Virus record (IMG/VR): IMGVR_UViG_3300006121_000042
Span: 1-25,217 of that record
Length of the DNA stretch: 25,217 nucleotides
Reading direction: 5' to 3' (one strand)
From: a virus
Part shown: positions 1,944 through 25,217 of the stretch, one piece after another
How the letters are laid out: each line of letters begins with the position of its first letter
How positions within the stretch are numbered: the stretch's first letter is position 1
The notes under the pieces: model-generated
What the model was told of the DNA's origin: nothing
The model's database searches: none
Seen by the model: the letters and a program-made list of their open reading frames with translations, nothing else
Program-made: the position numbers and the translations under genes

Positions 1944-3686
1944 ATGAGTTGGAAAAAGTATTTTACACCTGTAGCGTCAAACACATCAGGCTCACTAAGC
2001 CCTTTTAATGGCAGTACTAGCCTTGGCCCAAGCCAAACTAACTATAGTAATTATTTGCCGGACGTTTACACAGGTAGTCCTAACCGCATTGAACGTTATA
2101 GCCAGTATGAAGTAATGGATAGTGATCCAGAAGTTAATGCCGCATTAGATATTCTTGCAGAATTTTGTACACAAAAATTAAAAGATGGCAAAAGTCCATT
2201 TACTGTCAGCTGGAGAAACAAAGCTACTAACAGTGAAGTTAAAATTCTTGCAGAATATATGCAACAATGGACTAAACTACAAAAATTTGAAACAAGAATT
2301 TTTCGTATTGTACGCAATGTATTCAAATATGGCGATGCTTTTTTTGTCAGAGATCCTGAAAATCAAAAATGGACTTATATAGATCCTAGTCAAATTATCA
2401 AAGTTATTGTAAATGAAAGCGAAGGAAAGAAACCCGAGCAGTATGTTGTTAAAGATCTAGCACCTAATTTTGAAAATTTAGTTGTAACACAAATAACTCC
2501 TAATATTAATCCACGTAATAATGCCGCTGGCGGTAATAGTTATGGCGGTATGATGGGCAGTCCAGGTAGTAGTAAAGGTACTGTAGGTAATAGTCCTACT
2601 AGTGGAAACGGCAGTAGATTTGGTCTCAATCAACATGAAAGTGCTTTAGATGCAAAACATATTGTGCATTTAAGTCTAAGTGAAGGATTAGATAACAATT
2701 ATCCATTTGGTAATAGCCTATTAGAAAATATTTTTAAAGTTTACAAACAAAAAGAGCTATTAGAAGACGCAATTTTAATTTATCGTATACAACGTGCTCC
2801 TGAAAGACGTGTATTTCATATCGACGTAGGTAATATGCCTAGCCATTTAGCTATGGCATTCGTAGAACGTGTTAAGAATGAGATACATCAACGTAGAATT
2901 CCTAGTCAATCAGGTGGCGGACAAAATGTTATCGACTCTGCTTATAATCCTTTAAGCATTAATGAAGACTATTTCTTTCCAACAACAGCAGAAGGACGTG
3001 GATCTAAAGTAGAAACATTGCCCGGCGGGACTAACTTAGGTGAAATTGATGACTTAAAGTACTTTACTAACAAGTTATTCCGTGGTTTGCGTATTCCAAG
3101 TAGCTATTTGCCTACTGGTGCAGACGATAGCCAAGCAAGTTTTAATGATGGACGAGTAGGAACAGCATACATTCAAGAGTTACGCTTTAACAAATACTGT
3201 GAAAGACTACAAAGTCTTATTACATCTGTGTTTGATGAAGAGTTTAAGATGTATATGCATGCCAAAGGACTTAATTTAGATGCTAATTTATTTGAATTAA
3301 AGTTTAATCCTCCGATGAACTTTGCCAGTTCACGTCAAGCAAGCATTGATGCAGAACGTATTAATACATTTAATACCATTCAAGCAGTACCATTTATGTC
3401 AAAACGTTTTGCATTAAAGCGTTTCTTAGGTTTAACAGACGAAGAAGTAGCAGAAAACGAACGTTTATGGGGCGAGGAAGCTGGAAAAGGCGAACCTACA
3501 ATGACTGATGCCGCTGGAGAAATGCGTAGTGCAGGCTTATCTGCCGCCGGCATTGAAGGAGATTTAGGCGCCGCAGGTGATATGACTCCTCCAGAGGATA
3601 TGCAAGAAGAACCAGGAGCAGAAAGTCAAGCTACAGCCGCTGGACAAACAGCAGGCACACCTGCTCCAACAGCACCACCAGCATAA
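1944..3686 (+). CDS. 20: Portal vertex protein of the head, T4 gp20 family
   Basis: The portal is a dodecameric ring at one vertex of the prohead. It initiates head assembly, passes DNA and joins the tail. The protein has 580 residues (T4 gp20 has 524) and family-typical features: an N-terminal RIERYSQYEVMDSDPEVNAA segment (about 50-70), WTYIDPSQIIKV in the clip/wing region, and GTNLGEIDDLKYFTNKLFRG followed by IPSSYLP (about 360-390). Two parts look lineage-specific: a Gly/Ser/Asn-rich insertion at about 194-226 and an Ala/Pro/Glu-rich, probably disordered C-terminal tail from about 530. The ATG follows TAAGGACAACC, a reasonable ribosome-binding site, 12 bases after the preceding gene. Protease, scaffold and capsid genes downstream confirm the identification. 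The stop codon lies inside a late-promoter-like motif. Confidence 0.95.
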   Translation: MSWKKYFTPVASNTSGSLSPFNGSTSLGPSQTNYSNYLPDVYTGSPNRIERYSQYEVMDSDPEVNAALDILAEFCTQKLKDGKSPFTVSWRNKATNSEVKILAEYMQQWTKLQKFETRIFRIVRNVFKYGDAFFVRDPENQKWTYIDPSQIIKVIVNESEGKKPEQYVVKDLAPNFENLVVTQITPNINPRNNAAGGNSYGGMMGSPGSSKGTVGNSPTSGNGSRFGLNQHESALDAKHIVHLSLSEGLDNNYPFGNSLLENIFKVYKQKELLEDAILIYRIQRAPERRVFHIDVGNMPSHLAMAFVERVKNEIHQRRIPSQSGGGQNVIDSAYNPLSINEDYFFPTTAEGRGSKVETLPGGTNLGEIDDLKYFTNKLFRGLRIPSSYLPTGADDSQASFNDGRVGTAYIQELRFNKYCERLQSLITSVFDEEFKMYMHAKGLNLDANLFELKFNPPMNFASSRQASIDAERINTFNTIQAVPFMSKRFALKRFLGLTDEEVAENERLWGEEAGKGEPTMTDAAGEMRSAGLSAAGIEGDLGAAGDMTPPEDMQEEPGAESQATAAGQTAGTPAPTAPPA

Positions 3687-6772: not shown

Positions 6773-7948
6773 ATGTCAGAACTATTAAACGGACGTTGGG
6801 CAGAAACTAAGGAAGCCCTATTAGAAGGCTTACAAGGCACAAAAAAATCAGTAATGGGTGTAACACTAGAGAATACTCGTAAGTATTTGCTAGAAAGCCC
6901 AACAGCTGGTGCCACTTCTGCCGGCAACGTTGCAACATTAAACCGCGTAATTCTACCGGTAATTCGTCGTGTTATGCCAACCGTTATTGCTAACGAGTTG
7001 TTAGGCGTACAACCAATGACTGGTCCAGTTGGTCAAATTCACACTCTACGTGTGCGTTATGCTGACACATCATCAGGCGCTGGAGTCGTAGCAGGTGAAG
7101 AGGCATTAAGCCCATTCAAGATTGCGGCTTCTTATTCTGGTAACCAAACTGACGCAACTTCAAAAGCTAGCTCAACAGCTACTTTAGAAGGTCAAGCTGG
7201 TAACCGTTTAAGCATCCAGATCTTGAAACAAACAGTTGAAGCTAAGACACGTAAGTTATCAGCTCGCTGGACATTTGAGGCTGCTCAAGACGCTCAAGCT
7301 CAACAAGGTATTGACGTTGAAGCAGAAATTATGGCTGCTCTTGCACAAGAAATTACAGCTGAAATCGACCAAGAGATCATTGCATCATTGATCACATTGG
7401 CTGGTACTGCTAGCTACACATACGACCAAGCGTCTGTAAGTGGTACAGCTACATTCGTTGGTGACGAGCATGCTGCCTTAGCAGTTATGATCAACCGCGT
7501 AAGTAACTTGATCGCTCAACGTACACGTCGTGGTGCTGGTAACTACGCTGTTGTATCACCATTTGCATTGACAATTCTACAATCTGCTACTACTTCAGCT
7601 TTTGCTCGTACAACAGAAGGTACATTTGAAGCACCTACAAACACTAAGTTTGTTGGTACATTAAACAATGCTATGAAAGTATATGTAAACAGCTATGCTG
7701 TTGACACAACTGATATTCTTATCGGTTACAAAGGTGCTTCAGAGTCTGATGCTCCTGCTTTCTATTGCCCATACATTCCATTGATGAGCAGTGGTGTTGT
7801 TTTAGATCCATCAACATTCGAACCAGTCGTTTCATTCATGACACGTTATGGTTATGTTGAGTTGTCAAACACAGCAAGTTCTTTAGGTAATGCCGCTGAC
7901 TATCTAGGTCGTGTTGCTATTACTTCAGCTAACGTTAAGTTCCAGTAA
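6773..7948 (+). CDS. 23: Major capsid protein, T4 gp23 family
   Basis: This HK97-fold protein forms the hexameric lattice of the head. Diagnostic segments include NRVILPVIRRVMPTVIANEL (about 55-75), the MTGPVGQIHTLRVRYA block, RWTFEAAQDAQAQQGIDVEA, EITAEIDQEIIASL and SPFALTILQSA. It has 391 residues, about 130 fewer than T4 gp23 (521), so some T4 insertions are probably absent. The gp21 consensus (L/I)xE occurs at LLE|G (residue 18) and LLE|S (residue 41). The second lies shortly before the conserved core and is the likelier maturation site. AAGGAG precedes the ATG, 13 bases after gp22, and an intrinsic terminator follows the stop by 25 bases, as expected for the most abundant virion protein. 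Confidence 0.97.
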   Translation: MSELLNGRWAETKEALLEGLQGTKKSVMGVTLENTRKYLLESPTAGATSAGNVATLNRVILPVIRRVMPTVIANELLGVQPMTGPVGQIHTLRVRYADTSSGAGVVAGEEALSPFKIAASYSGNQTDATSKASSTATLEGQAGNRLSIQILKQTVEAKTRKLSARWTFEAAQDAQAQQGIDVEAEIMAALAQEITAEIDQEIIASLITLAGTASYTYDQASVSGTATFVGDEHAALAVMINRVSNLIAQRTRRGAGNYAVVSPFALTILQSATTSAFARTTEGTFEAPTNTKFVGTLNNAMKVYVNSYAVDTTDILIGYKGASESDAPAFYCPYIPLMSSGVVLDPSTFEPVVSFMTRYGYVELSNTASSLGNAADYLGRVAITSANVKFQ

Positions 7949-11578: not shown

Positions 11579-12597
11579 TGAGATTTTTAAGACGTCAAAC
11601 ACTTAATCGTCGAGCAGTATTCGACAATAGTTTGTATGTAGACACAAACAATAATATCGTTATGGGCACAACAAATACACTAGTTTTGCCCAGTGGAACT
11701 ACTAACGGAACAAGTCCTCGTCCATATGTTCCAGTAGCAGGAATGATGCGTTATAATACAACTACTAGTAACATAGAAGTGTATCAAGGCAGTAGTTGGA
11801 GAGCATTACGTTATGCAGAGTCAGGCCCAATTGTTCAACAAAATTTAGGCGCCGGTGACGGGCAGTCTGTATATTTTGGACCTTTAAATAGTTTATATAA
11901 TCCCGGAAATGTCAGTAGCAACAACAGTAATTTTGGCGGACAAAATATGCTAGTAGTTGTGGAAAACGTTTTGCAACTAGCTGGTAATAACTATACAGTA
12001 GTACAAAATCCTACTCTAAGTTCAGAAGTTTTTCAACCAATAGTATCTCAAGATGTAACAACTGGGCAAACATCGATACCATTAGTAACAAGTTTAACAG
12101 TAACAAGTGTAGGATCATCTGGAGGTATTGCCACTTTAATTTTTAATACATTATTAGCAAATCCATTTTATGTAGGTCAAACTATTACAGTGACAGATAT
12201 TAATCCATCAGCATATAACGGCAAATTTACAGTTTCTAGTGTAACTCCAGGTAGTGTAAGTTATAGCAGTAGTGCTACTGGTAGTATGCCAGCTGGGTCT
12301 TATGGAACAGTTATGGGTGTAGGTGCCATCTATGCAGGAAATTCAATCATTGGCGCAACAGTATCTGGAACACATATTCCAAACGGTACTACAGTTGCCA
12401 GTATATTAAACGATCCTAATACTGATGCAATTATCAATATTAGATTAAGTCAAGCAACTACTGGCGGAACAATTACTGCTGGAACACAGATCACTATAAC
12501 AGAAAACAGCCAAACTGGTAGTGGTTACTATCTATTCTTTAGTAGCCCTCCTCCATACGGTAAAATTGTAACAGCATTACTGGGTTTTGACCAGTAA
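11578..12597 (+). CDS. Fibre-type protein with RP-G-RYNT-EVY-W motif and Ig-like module
   Basis: The 339-residue protein starts MRFLRRQTLNRRAVFDNSLY. Residues about 39-78 hold the tail-fibre motif LPSGTTNG...RPYVPVAGMMRYNTTT, then EVYQGSSW. The neighbours at 12610 and 14105 carry the same motif. From about 175 to 236 is an Ig-like module (IATLIFNTLLANPFYVGQTI, then YNGKFTVSSVTPGSVSY) that recurs inside both giant adhesins. Between them lies a domain with FGGQNMLVVVENVLQLAGNN. The end, GYYLFFSSPPPYGKIVTALL, looks folded. It overlaps the previous stop by one base and has no separate ribosome-binding site. It probably belongs to the same appendage as its neighbours. Confidence 0.72.
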   Translation: MRFLRRQTLNRRAVFDNSLYVDTNNNIVMGTTNTLVLPSGTTNGTSPRPYVPVAGMMRYNTTTSNIEVYQGSSWRALRYAESGPIVQQNLGAGDGQSVYFGPLNSLYNPGNVSSNNSNFGGQNMLVVVENVLQLAGNNYTVVQNPTLSSEVFQPIVSQDVTTGQTSIPLVTSLTVTSVGSSGGIATLIFNTLLANPFYVGQTITVTDINPSAYNGKFTVSSVTPGSVSYSSSATGSMPAGSYGTVMGVGAIYAGNSIIGATVSGTHIPNGTTVASILNDPNTDAIINIRLSQATTGGTITAGTQITITENSQTGSGYYLFFSSPPPYGKIVTALLGFDQ

Positions 12598-15514: not shown

Positions 15515-15892
15515 ATGAGCAATAGTAATAATTATTATTTTGGAAGAGATCAACAAGAATTGATCGGAGGTCAGCCACGATACTTCATGGGACTACGTAG
15601 AAATAGCGATGGCGAAATAACCTTAGCCATTGTTGATCAATTAAGTAGAACTGATAGTATTCAAATTAACAATCCTGGAGATCCTAGCGGTAATTATACT
15701 GCATTTGAACCAGGTACAGATTTTTATGACAATAGAGATATCAATCACGCTTTGGTATATGCCAATTTAAATTACGAACAATACCGCTGGGATGATCGTA
15801 GAATTTATTATTATGTTGATAGCACAGGTGAACTAGTAGCCAGAATTAATACAAAATATGCTTACCCATCAGGGATAAGTTCAAACAATTAA
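15515..15892 (+). CDS. Conserved small protein YFGRDQQELIGGQPRYFMG, function unknown
   Basis: The 125-residue soluble protein contains the block YYFGRDQQELIGGQPRYFMG at residues 7-26 and EQYRWDDRRIYYYVDSTGEL near 93-112. I recall both as conserved in aquatic T4-like phages, always near fibre genes, without a known role. It is rich in Tyr, Asp and Arg, unlike the Thr/Ser/Ala-rich genes around it, and looks like a compact globular domain. AAGGATAG precedes the ATG, 9 bases after the previous gene. A connector or baseplate-linked role is a guess from the company it keeps. Confidence 0.75.
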   Translation: MSNSNNYYFGRDQQELIGGQPRYFMGLRRNSDGEITLAIVDQLSRTDSIQINNPGDPSGNYTAFEPGTDFYDNRDINHALVYANLNYEQYRWDDRRIYYYVDSTGELVARINTKYAYPSGISSNN

Positions 15893-15901
15893 GAGTAGAT
15901 T

Positions 15902-18900
15902 ATGCCAGATTTTAAAATAGCCAGTATACGATACACATGGAAAGGAACTTGGACTAGTTCCAATGGTTACCTTGCTGACGATGTAATATTTTACGGCGGT
16001 AAGGCTTACGTTTGTTTGTTAGCTCACACAAGTAGCAGTAGTTTTGCCACAGACTTAGCATTATCTACACTATGGGTACAGATGTTTGATGGGTATACAT
16101 GGCGCGGTGCATGGACACCGAGTGCAACTAATACATTATCAGTAATTTCATCATCTGGCAACGGAACAACTGCTACATTAGTGTTTGCAACTCAATCATC
16201 TAATCCATTTACTGTTGGACAATCTATTACTGTTGGCGGTAATAGTGTGTCTGGATATAATGTAACCGCTACAGTTACAGCAGTTACAACTAGTTCAGTT
16301 AGCTATCTAAATACTACTACAACGACAGGAACCGGTGGCACTATTACGTCTGCTGGTGCAGTTAATTTATATAATCCCGGAGATACAGTTAGTTATGGAG
16401 GATTAGTTTATAGATGTATTACTAGCCACACTGCCGCAATTTCAACTGCACTTGGACTTGAAGCTAATCAAAGTGCTTGGACTATTGTAAGTCAAGCCGA
16501 TGCTTGGAAAACAAATTGGGCAATTAGTACACAATATAAAGTTAACGATGTAGTCGTATATGGTGGAACAATTTATCGTTGTATTACTGCTCACACTAGT
16601 TCATCTTTTGTTACTACTGGATTAGAAGCTAATCAAAGTGCTTGGCAAATTGTATATCAACAATTATCTTATAAGAGTGGTTGGGCAACTGCTACAAATT
16701 ATCACGTATTAGACGTAGTTCAGTTTGACGGAACTTTATATATTTGTAATGTAGCTCACCAATCTACTGTATTTTTAACAGATTCTCCAGTATATTGGAG
16801 TATATATTTAGACGCTTTAGAATTCCCGGGACTTAATTCGCCTATATATAGTTCAAGTCAGCAATATTATAAAGGTGATATCGTTAACTATGGTGGCTAT
16901 AGCTATAGAGCACTCAGAAATAATCTTAATCAGATTCCGGACATTAACACAAGTTATTGGCAAATCGTAACAGAAAATTATTACTATAGACAAACATGGT
17001 CTTCTTCAGTTTCATATACTATTGGATCTGTAATTAGAAATGATGGTTATCTATATGTTTGTATATTAGACAACTATCAACAACAACCTCCTAATGCAAC
17101 TTATTGGACATTGTTAGTACCAGGTCGCTTCTGGGCAGGTTTTTGGTCAACACCTACTCCTTACGTATTAGGAGATATAGTTTCATATGCAGGATTGTCA
17201 TACGAGTGTATACTTGCTCATACTTCTTCATCGGGCACATTACCTGCTACTGATGTTGCCGCTGGCTCATCTAGTGTTGGTACATATTGGAAAGTTTATA
17301 GTCTTGGAGATGCCAATAATGTATTGACAACTCAAGGTGATACGCTTTGGTGGAACACTGGCGCAAAATCAAGATTACCTATTGGAAATCCTGGACAAAT
17401 TTTAAAAGCAAGTTCTGGTACTTCAATAAATTGGGCAACATTTGGAGTTATTAGTAAAGTTTATTATGTTTCATCAACGGCAGGAACAGATACTCCGTTG
17501 TACGGAACTAGTTTGAATAGCCCATGGGCTACTATTGCCTACGCTTGCGCTCAATTGATTGCAAACGGTATTACAGGCGCAACAATTTTTATCAAAACTG
17601 GTACATATACTGAAGTATGTCCGATCAGTGTTCCAGCTAATTGTAGTTTAGTAGGTGACGAGTTGCGTACAACTATTGTTCAACCAACTGCGGCTACTAG
17701 TGGTAACAACATGTTTTATGTTCGCAACGGCACAATTATTAGAAATATGACTCTTCAAGGGTTAACTGGATCATTAGGCCTTGCAAATTCTTACGGCACA
17801 AAACGTCCAACTGGCGGAGCGTTCGTAAGTTTAGATCCAGGTTCTGGCACAAGTGATAGTTCAGTTTGGATTACTTCAAAGAGTCCGTATGTACAAAACG
17901 TAACAACGTTTGGTACAGGATGTGTAGGATTAAAAGTAGATGGAACATTACATGCCGGCGGTTACAGAAGTATTGTATGTAACGATTTTACACAAATCTT
18001 AAGTGATGGTATTGGTGTATGGATTAATAGTTTAGGTCGTTCAGAAGCTGTATCAGTGTTTACTTATTATAATTACATAGGTTATCTATGTGAAAATGGC
18101 GGAAAATTACGTGCAACCAACGGCAATAATAGTTATGGTGTATATGGATCTGTAGCAGAAGGAGTATACTCTGCAGAAACTCCAATTACTGCTTACGTTA
18201 ATAACAGAGCTACACAAGCAAGTGTTGGTTATGTTATGACTAATACTGTAAAATTATTAGCATTTGAATATGCCAATGCTGGATTAAATTATACCAGTCC
18301 GTCATATACTATCACTGGTAGCGGTTCAGGAGTTATATTTGAAACTTATGATATTCGTAATGCCGGCATTTATGAAATTAGAGTTACTGATCCTACTAAC
18401 ACTGGGTTTCCTGGTGGTACAAGTTATCTTAGCGTAACTGGATTGGCACAAAATGGTACTAGTAACGGAACTATCACACTATCAGCTAGTGATACAAACA
18501 GCGCATTAGTTTATGCAGGTATGCGAATTGTAGTTCTTTCAGGAACTGGTGCAGGACAGTCGGGTTATATTCAAGCGTACAACAGTACAAGTAAAGTAGC
18601 TACAATTTATTCTGAAGCAACTGGCGCACAAGGATGGGATCTTGCCTATCCAGGAACCCAGCCAACAGTTTGCGACAACTCTAGTTCGTATATTATTGAA
18701 CCAAGAGTTGCGATTGCAGGTCCAGGTTTTGGTACAGTAGGTGGAAGTTTAACAGCTTCAGGATATTGGGCTAGTAGCGCATACGGTAATGGATATTTTG
18801 TAACAATTGACGGACAAAGTCAACTAGTTAACTATTCTACAAATGGCCTTAATTGGAATTTAGGTTCTGGTTTACCAAACTTAGGCGCAACAACTAGTAT

Positions 18901-21268
18901 GGTTTACAGTAATGGTTTATTCATTGCTACTAATACACTTACTACAACTATTGCATATAGTTCTAACGGTACTAGTTTTACTTCAGGTGCATTACCTGTA
19001 ACAACATTTGGTAATTCACCAATTATTTCTGCTCCAAGCAGTTATTATGGAAACTATGCCGCTATTGTAATGAACACCGGTTCAAGAACTAATTTGTTAA
19101 CTTATAGTAATACGTTAACAAATGCCGCTTGGACTACAAGTTTATCTTATATTGTTCCAGCATCTGTTGCGACACAAGCACCAGATGGAACATATACTGC
19201 TTATAAATTTATTGACAATACTAGCAATGCAGAACACGTAATTTATTATACTAGAACAAATGCTAGTCCAGAAACAGTTACATTTTCTATCTATGCTAAA
19301 GCCGCAGAACGTAGCCAAATTCTAGTTGGATTTACTAATGGAACGCCAAGTACAACATTCACTGGTGCAATTATAAATTTAGCAACAGGTGGAGTTATTA
19401 CTGCTCCGACAAGTACAGGAGATTATTCAGGAACGTCGGTAAACGTAACTGGTGCAGGGAATGGTTGGTATAGAATTGCTGTAACAGCTACCCATGCAGT
19501 AGGAACAAATACTAACAACTATCCATTTATCGATGTTATTAATAATTCTAGCGCACAGCAATATATTGGCGATGGATTGAGCGGGTTGTACTTATGGGGC
19601 GCACAATTAGAAGTTGGTACTCGTGCTAGCGCATACGTTCCGACTACTACAACCACTGCTAACGGTACATTTGAATTATTTAAAACTAACAATGCTACTA
19701 CTTGGATTCCATTTGGATCTCCTACTATCGGCGGAGGCCCATTAGTCTACGGTAACGGAACTTATGTAAGTTTTGCTAGTACAGCTAGCAATCAATGCCA
19801 ATATGCTATCAACGGTATTACATGGGCAACAGCAACTTTACCATTTACTCAAACATGGACATTAGCTAGTTTTGGTAACGGAGTGTTCATTGCAGTTTCA
19901 ATTGGATCATCTAACGGTGCTTATAGTATAGACGGTATTAACTGGTATGCAATGACTTTACCAGCCGCAAGTCAGTGGCTCAGCGTAACTTTTGGTCAAG
20001 GCTTATTCATGTTAATAGCTAGTGGATCAACTAGCAATGCACAAAGTCAAGATGGTATCAACTGGACTGCAAATTTAGTAGGAACAAGTCCTGCATGGAG
20101 TACAGTATCAGTTAGCAATCCTACATCAGGGCCTGCTGTGTTTGTAGCAATTACCTCAGGTAGTAACATCTCAAGTGTGATGACAACTGGAGCAACTGCT
20201 CGAGCAAGAGCAATTATATCGTCAGGATCGATTAAATCTTTTAGAATTCAGAATCCAGGATCTGGCTATGTAATTGGACCAACACTGACTATTACCGATC
20301 CAAATGCAAGTACAGCCGCATCTTATACAATTCGTTACGGTGATGGAGTATTAGGTCAACCAACATTTATATCTAGGGGTACTGGATACCTAACTGCTGG
20401 TGCTGTTATTACAGATAGTGCTAGTACAGGTTATGCAGATTCTTATCAAACTGGAAGCTATCTAAACATATATGGAATGACTAGTACACCTACTCCAGGA
20501 TCAAACGTAGTTATTAGCGGTAATCCTACAGTTTATAAGCTGGTAGCTATTACTAATGTATCTGGATCATTAGGTAATCAATCTGCTACATTGCAATTTG
20601 ACCAATCTATATCTGTTTATAAATCGCAAGCTAATGCAACTGCATTGTCTATTCGAATTTTATACAGTCAAATTCGTTTAACAGGACATGATTTTTTAAG
20701 TATTAATAGCGGTAACTATGTTAATACAAATTATCCAATCAATGCGTTCTTTACACCTAGCTTGGCAACTTTTCAAACAATAGAAGCTGGTGGCGGCCAC
20801 GTATTTTATACTGCAACTGACCAAGATGGTAATTTTACAGTAGGTAATATTTTTGGTGTTGCTCAAGCAACTGGTACAGTTACACTAAGTGCTAGTTTGT
20901 TTAATCTTTCAGGATTAACACAAATTAGTTTAGGTGCGTTAGTTGTTGGTAGTTCAAGTGCAATTATTAATACTATTAGTACAGACGGTACTATGAGTGC
21001 AAACAGTGATAATACTATTAGTACTCAACGAGCAATTAAAACATATATTGCTAGCAGATTAGGTCAAGGTGGCGGAACAAGTCAGGTAAACAGTGCCACT
21101 ATGGGGCAAGTGCAAGTGGTGAATGATAATAGCGGTATAGGTAGTATCTTAACTACAACAGGTAATCAAATTAATATGGCTAACAAAGTTATGTTCCAAG
21201 GCCCAGCGGCTGGTGTTGATGGGTCGCTATTAGCAATGGCATATTTAATGCAAAGTTTCCATAATTAA
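15902..21268 (+). CDS. Giant multidomain adhesin or tail-fibre protein (1788 residues)
   Basis: Domains in order. Residues 13-466: seven repeats like chitin-binding type 3 / CBM5/12 modules, pattern W...Y..GD.V.Y.G..Y.C...H......W. Repeat 2 is interrupted by an Ig-like module at about 78-152. About 467-515: linker VLTTQGDTLWWNTGAKSRLP. About 515-775: right-handed beta-helix of pectate-lyase type, beginning ATIFIKTGTYTE and including SDGIGVWINSLGRSEAVSVF. About 780-945: beta-rich modules. About 948-1425: blades with YSTNGLNW, INGITW, IDGINW and QDGINW, suggesting a beta-propeller, interrupted at about 1061-1255 by a lectin-like domain (TNLLTYSNTLTNAAW...QAPDGT). About 1592-1788: C-terminal domain RLTGHDFLSINSGNYVNTNY with FYTATDQDGNFTVGNIFGVA. 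It probably binds host surface glycans. No catalytic site is evident. The ribosome-binding site is weak (AAGAGTAG). Confidence 0.85.
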   Translation: MPDFKIASIRYTWKGTWTSSNGYLADDVIFYGGKAYVCLLAHTSSSSFATDLALSTLWVQMFDGYTWRGAWTPSATNTLSVISSSGNGTTATLVFATQSSNPFTVGQSITVGGNSVSGYNVTATVTAVTTSSVSYLNTTTTTGTGGTITSAGAVNLYNPGDTVSYGGLVYRCITSHTAAISTALGLEANQSAWTIVSQADAWKTNWAISTQYKVNDVVVYGGTIYRCITAHTSSSFVTTGLEANQSAWQIVYQQLSYKSGWATATNYHVLDVVQFDGTLYICNVAHQSTVFLTDSPVYWSIYLDALEFPGLNSPIYSSSQQYYKGDIVNYGGYSYRALRNNLNQIPDINTSYWQIVTENYYYRQTWSSSVSYTIGSVIRNDGYLYVCILDNYQQQPPNATYWTLLVPGRFWAGFWSTPTPYVLGDIVSYAGLSYECILAHTSSSGTLPATDVAAGSSSVGTYWKVYSLGDANNVLTTQGDTLWWNTGAKSRLPIGNPGQILKASSGTSINWATFGVISKVYYVSSTAGTDTPLYGTSLNSPWATIAYACAQLIANGITGATIFIKTGTYTEVCPISVPANCSLVGDELRTTIVQPTAATSGNNMFYVRNGTIIRNMTLQGLTGSLGLANSYGTKRPTGGAFVSLDPGSGTSDSSVWITSKSPYVQNVTTFGTGCVGLKVDGTLHAGGYRSIVCNDFTQILSDGIGVWINSLGRSEAVSVFTYYNYIGYLCENGGKLRATNGNNSYGVYGSVAEGVYSAETPITAYVNNRATQASVGYVMTNTVKLLAFEYANAGLNYTSPSYTITGSGSGVIFETYDIRNAGIYEIRVTDPTNTGFPGGTSYLSVTGLAQNGTSNGTITLSASDTNSALVYAGMRIVVLSGTGAGQSGYIQAYNSTSKVATIYSEATGAQGWDLAYPGTQPTVCDNSSSYIIEPRVAIAGPGFGTVGGSLTASGYWASSAYGNGYFVTIDGQSQLVNYSTNGLNWNLGSGLPNLGATTSMVYSNGLFIATNTLTTTIAYSSNGTSFTSGALPVTTFGNSPIISAPSSYYGNYAAIVMNTGSRTNLLTYSNTLTNAAWTTSLSYIVPASVATQAPDGTYTAYKFIDNTSNAEHVIYYTRTNASPETVTFSIYAKAAERSQILVGFTNGTPSTTFTGAIINLATGGVITAPTSTGDYSGTSVNVTGAGNGWYRIAVTATHAVGTNTNNYPFIDVINNSSAQQYIGDGLSGLYLWGAQLEVGTRASAYVPTTTTTANGTFELFKTNNATTWIPFGSPTIGGGPLVYGNGTYVSFASTASNQCQYAINGITWATATLPFTQTWTLASFGNGVFIAVSIGSSNGAYSIDGINWYAMTLPAASQWLSVTFGQGLFMLIASGSTSNAQSQDGINWTANLVGTSPAWSTVSVSNPTSGPAVFVAITSGSNISSVMTTGATARARAIISSGSIKSFRIQNPGSGYVIGPTLTITDPNASTAASYTIRYGDGVLGQPTFISRGTGYLTAGAVITDSASTGYADSYQTGSYLNIYGMTSTPTPGSNVVISGNPTVYKLVAITNVSGSLGNQSATLQFDQSISVYKSQANATALSIRILYSQIRLTGHDFLSINSGNYVNTNYPINAFFTPSLATFQTIEAGGGHVFYTATDQDGNFTVGNIFGVAQATGTVTLSASLFNLSGLTQISLGALVVGSSSAIINTISTDGTMSANSDNTISTQRAIKTYIASRLGQGGGTSQVNSATMGQVQVVNDNSGIGSILTTTGNQINMANKVMFQGPAAGVDGSLLAMAYLMQSFHN
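17639..17686 (+). repeat. 48-base exact repeat, copy 1 (beta-helix start)
   Basis: It encodes NCSLVGDELRTTIVQP in the adhesin at 15902 and is identical, including synonymous positions, to 24409-24456 in the paralogous adhesin. Flanking bases differ on both sides. Confidence 0.95.
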
Positions 21269-21276
21269 AAATAACA

Positions 21277-21287
21277 TAAATATAATA
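21277..21287 (+). promoter_or_regulatory. Probable late promoter of the second giant adhesin
   Basis: TAAATATAATA, the same 11 bases as at 3998-4008, lies 8 bases after the stop of the first adhesin and 19 bases before the ATG at 21307. T4 spacing would start transcription near 21288, leaving a leader of about 19 bases with the ribosome-binding site CGGAG. No strong stem-loop is seen here. Confidence 0.65.
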
Positions 21288-21306
21288 GACAAGTACGGAG
21301 TATACA

Positions 21307-24300
21307 ATGGCAGAATTTAAATTAGGTAGAATTAGATTTGTTTGGAAAAACACATGGGCTGGTTCTACTACCTACTACAAAGATGACGTAGTTAGATACG
21401 GCGGTAAAACATACCTTTGCTTAACAGGGCACACTAGTAGTAGTGTATCAAACGGTTTTTATACGGATTTGTCATCAAATTACTGGCAATTATCTGCTGA
21501 TGGCCAATCGTGGACCGGTACTTGGGTAGCTAGTACAGTTTACAAAATTGGTGATTTAGTAAAATACGGTGGAACTGTTTACATTTGTAATACAGGTCAC
21601 GTTGCAAGTACTACACTCGAAACGAATCAAAGTTATTGGGATCAATGGGCAACCAGTTTGAATTTTATTGGTCCTTGGATTGCCGGTACAACATACAAAG
21701 TAGCTGACATTGTTACATACGGTGCAACGGTGTATCGTTGTAACACTGGACATACTGCGGCTGCAACTCCTGCTCTTGGATTAGAAGCAAATCAATCATC
21801 ATGGGATGTATTGAACCAGGCGTTTGCTTATGTAGGTGCATGGAGTGCACCTACTACTGTAACCGGTACTATTAGCGGAACAACATTAACAACTACAGGC
21901 GGATCTCCAGCTATTGGACAAGTGTTATCCGGTGGTAGTATTGCCGCAGGAACAGTAATTCTCAGCGGTAGCGGAACAACTTGGACATTAAGTATTTCTA
22001 ATGGATCATTGTCTAGCGCAACTTATACAGCAAGCCCACGTTACAGAATAAATGACGTGGTAAAATATGGCGCAGGTCTTTGGATTTGTACAACATATCA
22101 TAGCAGTACCAACGCTGGATTTGCCACAACTAATTTTGCAAGACTAGTAGACGGTTTAGAATTTAGTAATTCTTGGTCAGTGTCTTCAGCCTATGCGGTC
22201 GGCGATACCGTTACATACGGCGGTTATACTTATGTTGCAAAAACTAACGTAACAAATACAAGTCTTTCATTAGCTTCTTCAGTAGGAAATGGAACAAGTG
22301 TAACTTACAATTTTGCTAGTCAAACAATTCAACCATTTGTAGCACCACAGAGTGTAACCATAACAGGTGCAACTGGTACGTTGGCATCAAATACATCAAC
22401 TGGTGTTGGAGCTACAGCAGTGTTTACTGCAAGTGTAACTAGCTCAACTACATTAAGTGTATCTAGTGTTACTAGTGGAACTATCACAGTTGGATCTGTA
22501 ATTTCCGGAACTGGTGTTACTGTAGGAACAACTATTCTTGCATTATTATCAGGTAATGGTAGTTCAGGTGCAAGCACATGGCAGTTAAGTACTAGTCAGA
22601 ATTTTACATCAACTACAGTTTCAGCATCTGCTAATACTGGCGTAGCTACTTTAGTGTTCAACACAGCCCAATCGGTTGCTCCATTCCAAATTGGACAAAT
22701 TATAACTGTATCAGGGTTTACAGGTGGAGCAACAGGATATAATGGTACTCAAACTGTAGTATCTTGTACACAAACATATCTTACATTTGCTAGTTCTACT
22801 ACTCCGTATGCAACTGGTGGTACAATTACAATTACTGGATATAATGGTTCTTATGTAGTACAAAGTGCAACCAGTTCAAGTGTAACAGTTTTAAATACTA
22901 ATATTATTCCAATGACTGGTGGTACTATTACCAACAGTCCTCCTACAACAAACACAGGATCATGGGGTTTATTAAGTACTGGATTTAGTTATCAAAGTAC
23001 ATGGACTACATCAACTGCATATAAAATTGGTGCTGTAGTATCATTTGGTGCGTATACATATTTGGTCACTGCTGATCATACTAGTAGCGCAACTATCATT
23101 CCTCCTAATGCAAGTTATTATGCATTATTGAATCCAGGAATGCGTTGGACTACTTACGCTACAGGTGCAAGCTATGTAAGCCCAACAAATACAACTACAA
23201 GTGGTACAGGTTCAGGCGCAACATTTACAGTTGGTGTTAACGGTACAACTTATACAGTTACTAAAACTGGTAATGGTTCTGGATATTCAACTAATGCAGT
23301 AATTAAAATTGCTGGTACACAAGTAGGCGGTTTAACTCCTGCTAACGATATTCTTATTACAGTACAACAAAGCGGTGGCGCAATCACAACATTTACCTTT
23401 ACTGGTTTAGCAGTAACTTGGTATTCAGGCAGTTCATATGTACTTGGCGATCAAGTTACAATGGGTTATAACAGTTATATTTGCGTATTAGCTCATACTG
23501 CCGCAACAGGAAATCGTCCAGATAATGATACAACAGGTACATATTGGAACCAAGTAGCAAGTGGTGCTGAGACTAACGTATTAACAACACAAGGTGATAT
23601 AGTTTATTTTGGTGGAGCAGGTGCTACACGTTTACCTATTGGTACTGATGGTCAAGTATTGAAAGTCGTTGGTACTACTCCAACATGGGCAACATTTGGA
23701 CAAATTAATAACGTTTATTATGTTGCACCAAGTGGCACAGACAACTATACTAATGGATATGGTGTTACATTAGATAAACCATTTGCCACAATTAAATATG
23801 CCGCAAGTATTGTTGCCGCAGGTGTTAACAATCCTAATGCAGTTGCTTTATTAAAAGCAAATAAAACTTGGATGCAAAACGAAATGTGGTACTGGAGCAC
23901 TTATGAGAAATCAGTTAGTGCAAGTCCGTTTAGTCCAAGTTCAGTCTACGACCAAACTAAATCATATCGCGATTCAGGATTTATTATTGATGGTGTAATT
24001 TATGACTTATCACGTGGTGGTAATAGTCAGACAATTTTCAATGCGTATGCATTTTTCCAACCAGGAACTAATACATTCTACGATACAACTGTGGCAGCTG
24101 AAATGCCATATTTCATTGCCATGTTGACTGAGTTGGCCAGTTTAATGCAAAATGCGTTAACACAAACTGCGCCAGGAACAAGTTATCAAACTGTAATGAC
24201 AGCACCTAATCCAGTTAGTCAAGTAACTGCTGGCTCAGCGGCTGAATCCGGAGCAACTACAGCAACAACAACTTTAATGAACTATATCATTACTGCGTTG

Positions 24301-25217
24301 ACTACTGTAAGTACTGCGGCACTACCTTCACGTAGTAGCGGTCAAAGTGCAACAATTTTTGTTAAGACAGGAACTTACAACGAAATTCTTCCTATTAGTA
24401 TTCCAGAAAATTGTAGTTTAGTAGGTGACGAGTTGCGTACAACTATTGTTCAACCAGCAAGTACTACAGCAACTGTAACTGGATTTATCAGCAATGGTAC
24501 AAATAGTTCAACCGCAGGTACAACATTATCAGTAACCGCTGTTACTAGTGGTAGCGTAACAAACGGTATGTGGTTACAATCCGCTGGTGTAATTGCATTA
24601 CCAACTCAAATTACCAGCATCAATGCTGGTACACTTAATAGTCCATCGATTGCGGCAACAACGGTTGCAAGCACAGCATCGGTTGGAAGTGTAACCGGAT
24701 CAGGACCTTGGACAGCAACATTAACAGGACTATCAAATGCTAATTTGTTTACGGTTGGCGCAACAATTTCTGCAACAGCTGGTTCAAGTACTTCCCTTTC
24801 GGGTATGGCAAGCAGTGGCGGCGGCGTATTTACAATTACTACTCCATCAATTACTATAGCAGTTGGTATGACTGTAACTCTTACTAGTGCTAATACTGGT
24901 ACTGCTTCTAATGTTACTGCTGGTTCATATACGATTACAGCAATAGCTAGTCAAACACAATTTACTATTGCCGCATTAGCAACAGCTACTTCAGGTACTA
25001 TTGCTACACAAACTTGGGCAATTTCCGCTGGATCATTATATAGCGGTAGTCCAACTAGTGCTGTAGTAACAAGTATTCCAAGTGCAACTAGCATTACATA
25101 TACTGTTACAGGCGGTAATTTACCAGTAGCAGGCCCAATTACAGCAGTAACACAAACACAATTAACAGCAGGAGCAAGCAGTACTGGTTTAACAGTTGGC
25201 GGCGTACTAAGCGGCGG
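21307..25217 (+). CDS. Second giant adhesin, paralogue of 15902-21268 (3' end outside window)
   Basis: The frame was read from the ATG to the right edge (1303 codons) and no stop was found. The start MAEFKLGRIRFVWKNTW parallels MPDFKIASIRYTWKGTW of the first adhesin. Seven CBM5/12-like repeats follow, for example YGGKTYLCLTGHTSSS and YGGTVYICNTGH. Repeats 4, 5 and 7 are enlarged by inserted Ig-like modules. Then come the linker VLTTQGDIVYFGGAGATRLP, the beta-helix start NNVYYVAPSGTDN...KPFATIKYA, a helical insertion of about 170 residues (about 842-1013, with NKTWMQNEMWYW and YRDSGFIIDGVIYDLSRGGN), and the resumed beta-helix ATIFVKTGTYNEILPISIPE. More Ig-like modules (TVTSGSVTNGMW type) continue to the edge. 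CGGAG precedes the ATG. It probably binds a cell-surface glycan. Confidence 0.85.
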   Translation, partial: MAEFKLGRIRFVWKNTWAGSTTYYKDDVVRYGGKTYLCLTGHTSSSVSNGFYTDLSSNYWQLSADGQSWTGTWVASTVYKIGDLVKYGGTVYICNTGHVASTTLETNQSYWDQWATSLNFIGPWIAGTTYKVADIVTYGATVYRCNTGHTAAATPALGLEANQSSWDVLNQAFAYVGAWSAPTTVTGTISGTTLTTTGGSPAIGQVLSGGSIAAGTVILSGSGTTWTLSISNGSLSSATYTASPRYRINDVVKYGAGLWICTTYHSSTNAGFATTNFARLVDGLEFSNSWSVSSAYAVGDTVTYGGYTYVAKTNVTNTSLSLASSVGNGTSVTYNFASQTIQPFVAPQSVTITGATGTLASNTSTGVGATAVFTASVTSSTTLSVSSVTSGTITVGSVISGTGVTVGTTILALLSGNGSSGASTWQLSTSQNFTSTTVSASANTGVATLVFNTAQSVAPFQIGQIITVSGFTGGATGYNGTQTVVSCTQTYLTFASSTTPYATGGTITITGYNGSYVVQSATSSSVTVLNTNIIPMTGGTITNSPPTTNTGSWGLLSTGFSYQSTWTTSTAYKIGAVVSFGAYTYLVTADHTSSATIIPPNASYYALLNPGMRWTTYATGASYVSPTNTTTSGTGSGATFTVGVNGTTYTVTKTGNGSGYSTNAVIKIAGTQVGGLTPANDILITVQQSGGAITTFTFTGLAVTWYSGSSYVLGDQVTMGYNSYICVLAHTAATGNRPDNDTTGTYWNQVASGAETNVLTTQGDIVYFGGAGATRLPIGTDGQVLKVVGTTPTWATFGQINNVYYVAPSGTDNYTNGYGVTLDKPFATIKYAASIVAAGVNNPNAVALLKANKTWMQNEMWYWSTYEKSVSASPFSPSSVYDQTKSYRDSGFIIDGVIYDLSRGGNSQTIFNAYAFFQPGTNTFYDTTVAAEMPYFIAMLTELASLMQNALTQTAPGTSYQTVMTAPNPVSQVTAGSAAESGATTATTTLMNYIITALTTVSTAALPSRSSGQSATIFVKTGTYNEILPISIPENCSLVGDELRTTIVQPASTTATVTGFISNGTNSSTAGTTLSVTAVTSGSVTNGMWLQSAGVIALPTQITSINAGTLNSPSIAATTVASTASVGSVTGSGPWTATLTGLSNANLFTVGATISATAGSSTSLSGMASSGGGVFTITTPSITIAVGMTVTLTSANTGTASNVTAGSYTITAIASQTQFTIAALATATSGTIATQTWAISAGSLYSGSPTSAVVTSIPSATSITYTVTGGNLPVAGPITAVTQTQLTAGASSTGLTVGGVLSG
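24409..24456 (+). repeat. 48-base exact repeat, copy 2 (beta-helix start)
   Basis: Identical to 17639-17686 in the first adhesin and in the same place relative to the beta-helix. The two genes differ widely elsewhere at synonymous positions, which points to gene conversion or selection on this stretch. Confidence 0.95.

Follow-up and report, generated by a model that had tools for sequence, protein, structure and literature searches.

In the tail fibre gp015 of Agrobacterium phage 7-7-1 and the tail spike gp124 of Milano, the part that matches the repeats described below is a trimeric N-terminal module, which binds the tail and precedes a beta-helix. Milano further carries two short fibres parallel to each spike and bound to it. 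In the Anabaena myophage A-1(L), the long (274 Å) and short (258 Å) tail fibres are of similar length and fold back pairwise on one baseplate, and the distal CBM of the neck fibre failed to bind the host of this phage. The proteins closest to those analysed here belong to the T4-GC 296 tail-fibre family, with P-SSM2 PSSM2_301 as an example. All isolate homologues that were examined are single-copy and have five repeats, or six in Mosig. The family is widespread in IMG/VR, where single scans returned more than 570 related stretches. The usual view is that phage fibres are free to vary in their number of repeats.

The stretch of DNA analysed here (the window; 25,217 nucleotides) is the whole 25.2-kb IMG/VR contig IMGVR_UViG_3300006121_000042. 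It holds a T4-type head cluster, beyond which lie fibre and structural genes. The portal protein gp20 was identified with Pfam (Portal_T4, E = 2.7e-109), and protease-, scaffold- and gp23-like genes were recognised after it by inspection. Nearest capsid relatives are jumbo T4-like phages, namely Sinorhizobium phage Phosso (72%), Vibrio phage 2.275.O (69%) and the GAP32/CBB group (67.5%). The major capsid protein (6773-7948) is closer to those of these proteobacterial jumbo phages than to those of cyanophages, which contrasts with the fibre family, best known from the latter. Relatives of the fibre pair were found on contigs of up to 364 kb.

Two adjacent long genes on the (+) strand, P1 (tail-fibre paralogue 1, 15902-21268, 1788 aa) and P2 (tail-fibre paralogue 2, 21307-25217, open at the contig end, 1303 aa here), both fall into PHROG 9851 (E = 2.4e-140 and E = 1.5e-79, respectively), which corresponds to T4-GC 296, and tblastn of the pair gave matches in P-SSM2 and S-CAM1. 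Directly upstream of P1 lies a small gene of 125 aa (15515-15892, +) that encodes a T4-GC 295 homologue (PHROG 8997, E = 1.7e-13; BLASTP against PSSM2_300, E = 3e-8), and the gene 3' of P2, which is seen in contig L062, encodes a T4-GC 297 homologue (42%, E = 2e-28). The P1/P2 pair therefore occupies the locus of the single fibre gene of cyanophages. No tandem pair was seen in isolate records in homologue searches that included P-SSM2 and S-CAM1. A scan of genome contigs for pairs returned only two loci, both from one Neomarinimicrobiota MAG, which we do not count as host evidence. Beyond the fibre cluster, sugar-modifying genes were recognised by inspection at 19147-21788 of L062 (L007 contig), comprising a glycosyltransferase-like ORF and a Nol-like carbamoyltransferase; P-SSM2, S-CAM1 and S-CAM3 likewise contain sugar-modifying genes beyond the fibre cluster.

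An earlier note made from the sequence had described the two proteins as sharing one plan of seven repeats, a linker and a beta-helix, with differing inserts, and this description was confirmed. A repeat HMM detected seven copies in the N-terminus of P1 and seven in that of P2. Repeat 1 of P1 (15932-16093, +) is the most conserved one and the probable anchor. Repeat 2 (16094-16498, +) is split by a 67-aa beta module that lies within its loop (16154-16351, +; module HMM, E = 5e-22), and is followed by repeats 3 (16499-16660, +), 4 (16664-16816, +), 5 (16841-16978, +), 6 (16979-17125, +) and 7 (17126-17308, +). Repeat 4 is orthologous to position 5 in relatives with eight repeats, and repeats 5, 6 and 7 correspond to positions 6, 7 and 8. 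The linker NVLTTQGD...RLPIG (17309-17420, +) leads into a beta-helix-like region (approximately 17450-18180, +), which is strand-rich in the AF2 model and conserved in relatives. Further downstream, a beta-propeller-like region with a large insert (approximately 18720-20160, +) was indicated by the Ycf48 propeller profile (E = 5e-7) and by Foldseek matches to sialidases and propellers; its insert matches PHROG 5939. The conserved C-terminal region xSQxRLTGHDFL...TSTDQDGNF (20663-21061, +) was delimited by columns that are invariant among relatives. The model of the P1 C-terminus (mean pLDDT 74) resembles a sialidase and other propellers according to Foldseek, and domain limits in this half of the protein are approximate.

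P2 has a full length of 4005 aa in the near-identical contigs L007 and L062. Its repeats 1 (21337-21504, +), 2 (21505-21657, +) and 3 (21658-21822, +) are followed by repeat 4 (21823-22149, +) with an insert in the first loop, repeat 5 (22150-22974, +) with inserted beta modules (module HMM matches at residues 327-396, 441-508 and 500-542), repeat 6 (22984-23139, +) and repeat 7 (23140-23565, +), again with an insert in the first loop. The linker NVLTTQGD...RLPIG of P2 is located at 23566-23680 (+), and in both proteins the motif 'xxIPxNCSLVGDELRTTIVQP' follows LTTQGD...RLPIG.

The length of P2 varies among relatives, with 4005 aa in the L007/L062 lineage compared to about 1600 aa in relatives with eight repeats in either protein (8/8), for instance L009 and L011. 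The excess (residues ~2150-3600) consists largely of low-complexity T/S/G-rich beta modules, including near-duplicates at residues 2832-2896 and 3158-3224. The ~67-aa beta module also recurs: apart from the copies in P1 and in repeat 5 of P2 given above, it is found at 12115-12315 of the window and, in the 4005-aa P2, at about residues 2212-2277, 2498-2565 and the two near-duplicates. Its presence in several structural proteins here and in varying repeat loops of relatives is reminiscent of a mobile domain.

Several lines of evidence identify the fold of the repeats. Pfam CBM_5_12 matched P1 with E = 1.7e-34 and P2 with E = 1.7e-30. An AF2 monomer model of P1 residues 1-620 (50 aligned sequences) reached a mean pLDDT of 79, with about 90-95 in the repeats, and contains seven three-stranded domains, while the insert of repeat 2 (residues 96-145) mostly remained below 50. 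Foldseek searches against the PDB returned the 7-7-1 tail fibre 9rkv (E = 9e-9) and the Milano tail spike 8fqc (E = 3e-4) as well as chitin deacetylase CBMs and ChiA1 (1ed7, TM 0.75 by target). Together, the Pfam and AF2/Foldseek matches assign the repeats to the CBM5/12 fold, as the earlier note had proposed. Fold and core residues are common to the repeats and to CBM5/12 domains such as those of ChiA1 (1ed7), ChiC (2d49) and chitin oligosaccharide deacetylases, with an rmsd of 1.9 Å over 45 columns to 1ed7 and of 1.2 Å over 40 columns to 2d49.

Unlike the chitin-binding CBM5/12 domains, the P1 and P2 repeats are devoid of the chitin-binding aromatics. In CBM5, chitin is bound by an aromatic pair (PMC8449059). 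This pair (Y-W or W-W) was present in none of the 2080 P1 and P2 repeats among the matches listed; the core Tyr is kept in ~100% and the core Trp in 91-97% of repeats. At the aligned columns that we take to be the position of the CBM12 Trp, a Trp occurs in at most 0.1% of P1 and P2 repeats, and 37 of 1839 raw slices had a Trp at any place from the His up to the last Trp. Judged by these residues, the repeats do not have the appearance of sugar-binding domains. Since the residues of the site are absent, the glycan binding that the earlier note had ascribed to the repeats was rejected as a default interpretation. A Cys-x3-His motif, for which a metal or structural role is possible, is conserved in repeats 1-5 and 8 and mostly absent from repeats 6 and 7 in both paralogues.

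Repeat numbers of the two paralogues were compared in tandem pairs from seven IMG/VR scans and one genome scan, a non-random sample of the best 80 loci per query by similarity. Among the matches listed, 265 tandem pairs had complete N-termini and grouped into 134 clusters at 90% identity. Raw HMM counts among these matches were equal in 262 of 265 pairs and 132 of 134 clusters (100 clusters with 8/8, 31 with 7/7, one with 9/9 and two with 8/7). In both 8/7 exceptions (L333 and L431), an extra CBM copy is nested within the loop of a P1 repeat. The host repeat of L333 resumes past the nested copy (residues 335-383 of the 4331 (+) ORF), and in L431 a weak extra hit lies between the halves of repeat 5 (residues 247-276 of the 9998 (+) ORF). 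After correction for nested copies, which was made post hoc for L333 and L431 once the cases had been inspected, axial counts were equal in all 134 clusters among the matches listed (100 with 8/8, 33 with 7/7 and one with 9/9). None of the unequal pairs was retained as a true exception: in L181/L184 one repeat is divided by an insert, and L333 and L431/L432 contain nested copies, not axial repeats. Other unequal counts belonged to filtered-out pairs at contig ends, and the remaining filtered-out pairs were equal. The equal length of the P1 and P2 repeat strings is well supported. In L148 (9/9), the extra copy of each paralogue scores best against repeat 4 of the same protein; in P2, it scores equally well against repeat 3.

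Other parts of the proteins are not matched. The distance from the last repeat to the beta-helix motif is ~135 aa in P1 compared to 508 aa in P2, P1 proteins more often have propeller motifs (94/134) than P2 proteins do (32/97), and the inserts sit in repeat 2 of P1 and in repeats 4, 5 and 7 of P2. Matching is confined to the shaft, and loop inserts and tips are free to differ.

To place these counts in an evolutionary context, a tree was calculated from repeat 1, the last four repeats and the linker (quick maximum-likelihood, midpoint root). P1, P2 and the single-gene proteins separate cleanly, with two changes as the minimum and SH-aLRT values of 97/97/100, which indicates that the duplication predates divergence. 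On the joint tree of the pairs, five branches show a change of the count (four clades with seven repeats, one row with nine), each time in both paralogues, a result that depends on a rapidly calculated tree for a region that evolves fast. When the P2 count was simulated independently of P1 on this pair tree, the two disagreed in at least 27 of 134 rows. The suggestion in the earlier note that the repeat number matters is strengthened by these equal and co-changing counts; its emphasis on exactly seven was mistaken, and seven as a special number was rejected, since relatives have 8/8 or 9/9 and single-gene homologues five to six repeats. A test for in-register co-evolution between the repeats of P1 and P2 gave no significant signal (p = 0.21), and direct contact from repeat to repeat is thus hypothetical.

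It could be argued that the equality reflects common ancestry together with gene conversion or recombination between P1 and P2, without functional coupling, as descent accounts for the 8/8 state of most pairs. Both paralogues nevertheless changed on each of five separate branches, and one deletion cannot strip a repeat from two genes ~5 kb apart. Moreover, P1 repeats were no closer to P2 of their own phage than to P2 of other phages (mean rank ~0.5), and leave-one-out assignment recovered the right position and paralogue for 1577 of 1600 repeats and the right paralogue for 1597 of 1600. Since repeats are individually recognisable and within-phage similarity is not raised, gene conversion fails to account for the match. 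It was rejected for showing no signal in partner similarity, and we regard this explanation as already contradicted and highly improbable. Multivalent glycan binding by seven (or eight) modules per protein, with dual specificity conferred by the two proteins, would agree with the Pfam CBM_5_12 hits and the fold matches to chitin-binding domains. We nevertheless consider it improbable, given that the CBM5 pair and the CBM12-position Trp are absent or nearly so while the core Tyr and Trp are kept, that the corresponding domains of the closest solved phage fibres serve for tail binding, and that host binding was not observed for the distal CBM of the neck fibre in A-1(L). In addition, multivalency gives no reason to expect equal counts in two proteins.

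The reading that we prefer, with a probability of roughly 0.6, is that the repeats form structural shafts, which have to be equal owing to co-assembly of P1 and P2 or to their lateral pairing on the virion, and that the tips differ. Equal axial length combined with unequal tips and tolerated inserts is expected of shafts in one assembly or in a paired geometry. The equal, co-changing counts also support the hetero-complex considered in the earlier note, and from them we infer a physical complex. Co-assembly is favoured, and paired but separate fibres are the main rival. If P1 and P2 were separate, non-touching homotrimeric fibres, the geometry of a common baseplate (or neck) platform could force equal shafts, and equal counts would arise without in-register co-evolution; the pairwise folding of long and short fibres in A-1(L) and the parallel arrangement of short fibres and spike in Milano lend weight to this view. 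However, loop inserts and tip lengths (1788 vs 4005 aa) should upset a purely geometric match, and strict equality across five changes suggests tighter coupling. Separate fibres are therefore a serious possibility, which we rate clearly below even odds.

Under the preferred reading of co-assembled or laterally paired shafts, P1 and P2 would have arisen by ancient tandem duplication from the tail-fibre gene that is present once in T4-like cyanophages. The CBM5/12-fold repeats would act as structural shaft domains, with repeat 1 anchoring to the virion and the repeat string setting the projection distance of the beta-helix and the tip modules. An equal axial number would be required because P1 and P2 would be assembled together, either in a hetero-oligomeric fibre or laterally paired on one platform. 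The tips diverge in propeller, lectin-like and beta-module inserts and, judging from these domain types, would bind the host, probably at two receptors or at two parts of one. Dual specificity from the differing tips is plausible, if putative. It may further be speculated, at slightly less than even odds, that the duplicated gene became an obligate hetero-oligomeric, length-coupled two-tip fibre, in which domain gain or loss must be matched between side-by-side chains. If true, uncultured jumbo T4-like phages would be the setting of such a fibre. We take it as an evolutionary sign of common assembly that the repeat number stays equal although repeats were gained and lost several times independently, and although tips and inserts vary. 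A note of caution also follows for annotation, as 'CBM5/12' labels in phage fibres may denote structural instead of sugar-binding domains.

A precedent for matched fibres was not found in the open-licence literature, and the known systems each share part of the architecture. The T4-GC 296 proteins, annotated as 'phage tail fiber-like protein', have the same N-terminus (MAxF+LGR++F.W+..W), CBM5/12-fold repeats, LTTxGD...RLPIG linker, C-terminal region and T4-GC 295 and 297 flanks as P1 and P2. In cyanophages, however, they are encoded by one gene with five (sometimes six) repeats, whereas the locus described here contains a tandem pair with matched numbers of 7-9. CBM-like N-terminal domains followed by a beta-helix, as in 7-7-1 gp015 (PDB 9rkv) and Milano gp124 (PDB 8fqc), were found here in the form of the Foldseek matches and the strand-rich region after the linker. 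These two proteins differ from P1 and P2 in their size (587 aa), jelly-roll tip and single gene, without a shaft of 7-9 domains, and Milano gp124 has two N-terminal globular domains, unlike P1 and P2. Finally, gp33 and gp34 of A-1(L) are two fibre types that are paired on one baseplate and address different receptors, but they stem from different genes, in contrast to the length-matched paralogues P1 and P2 with their common repeat shaft.
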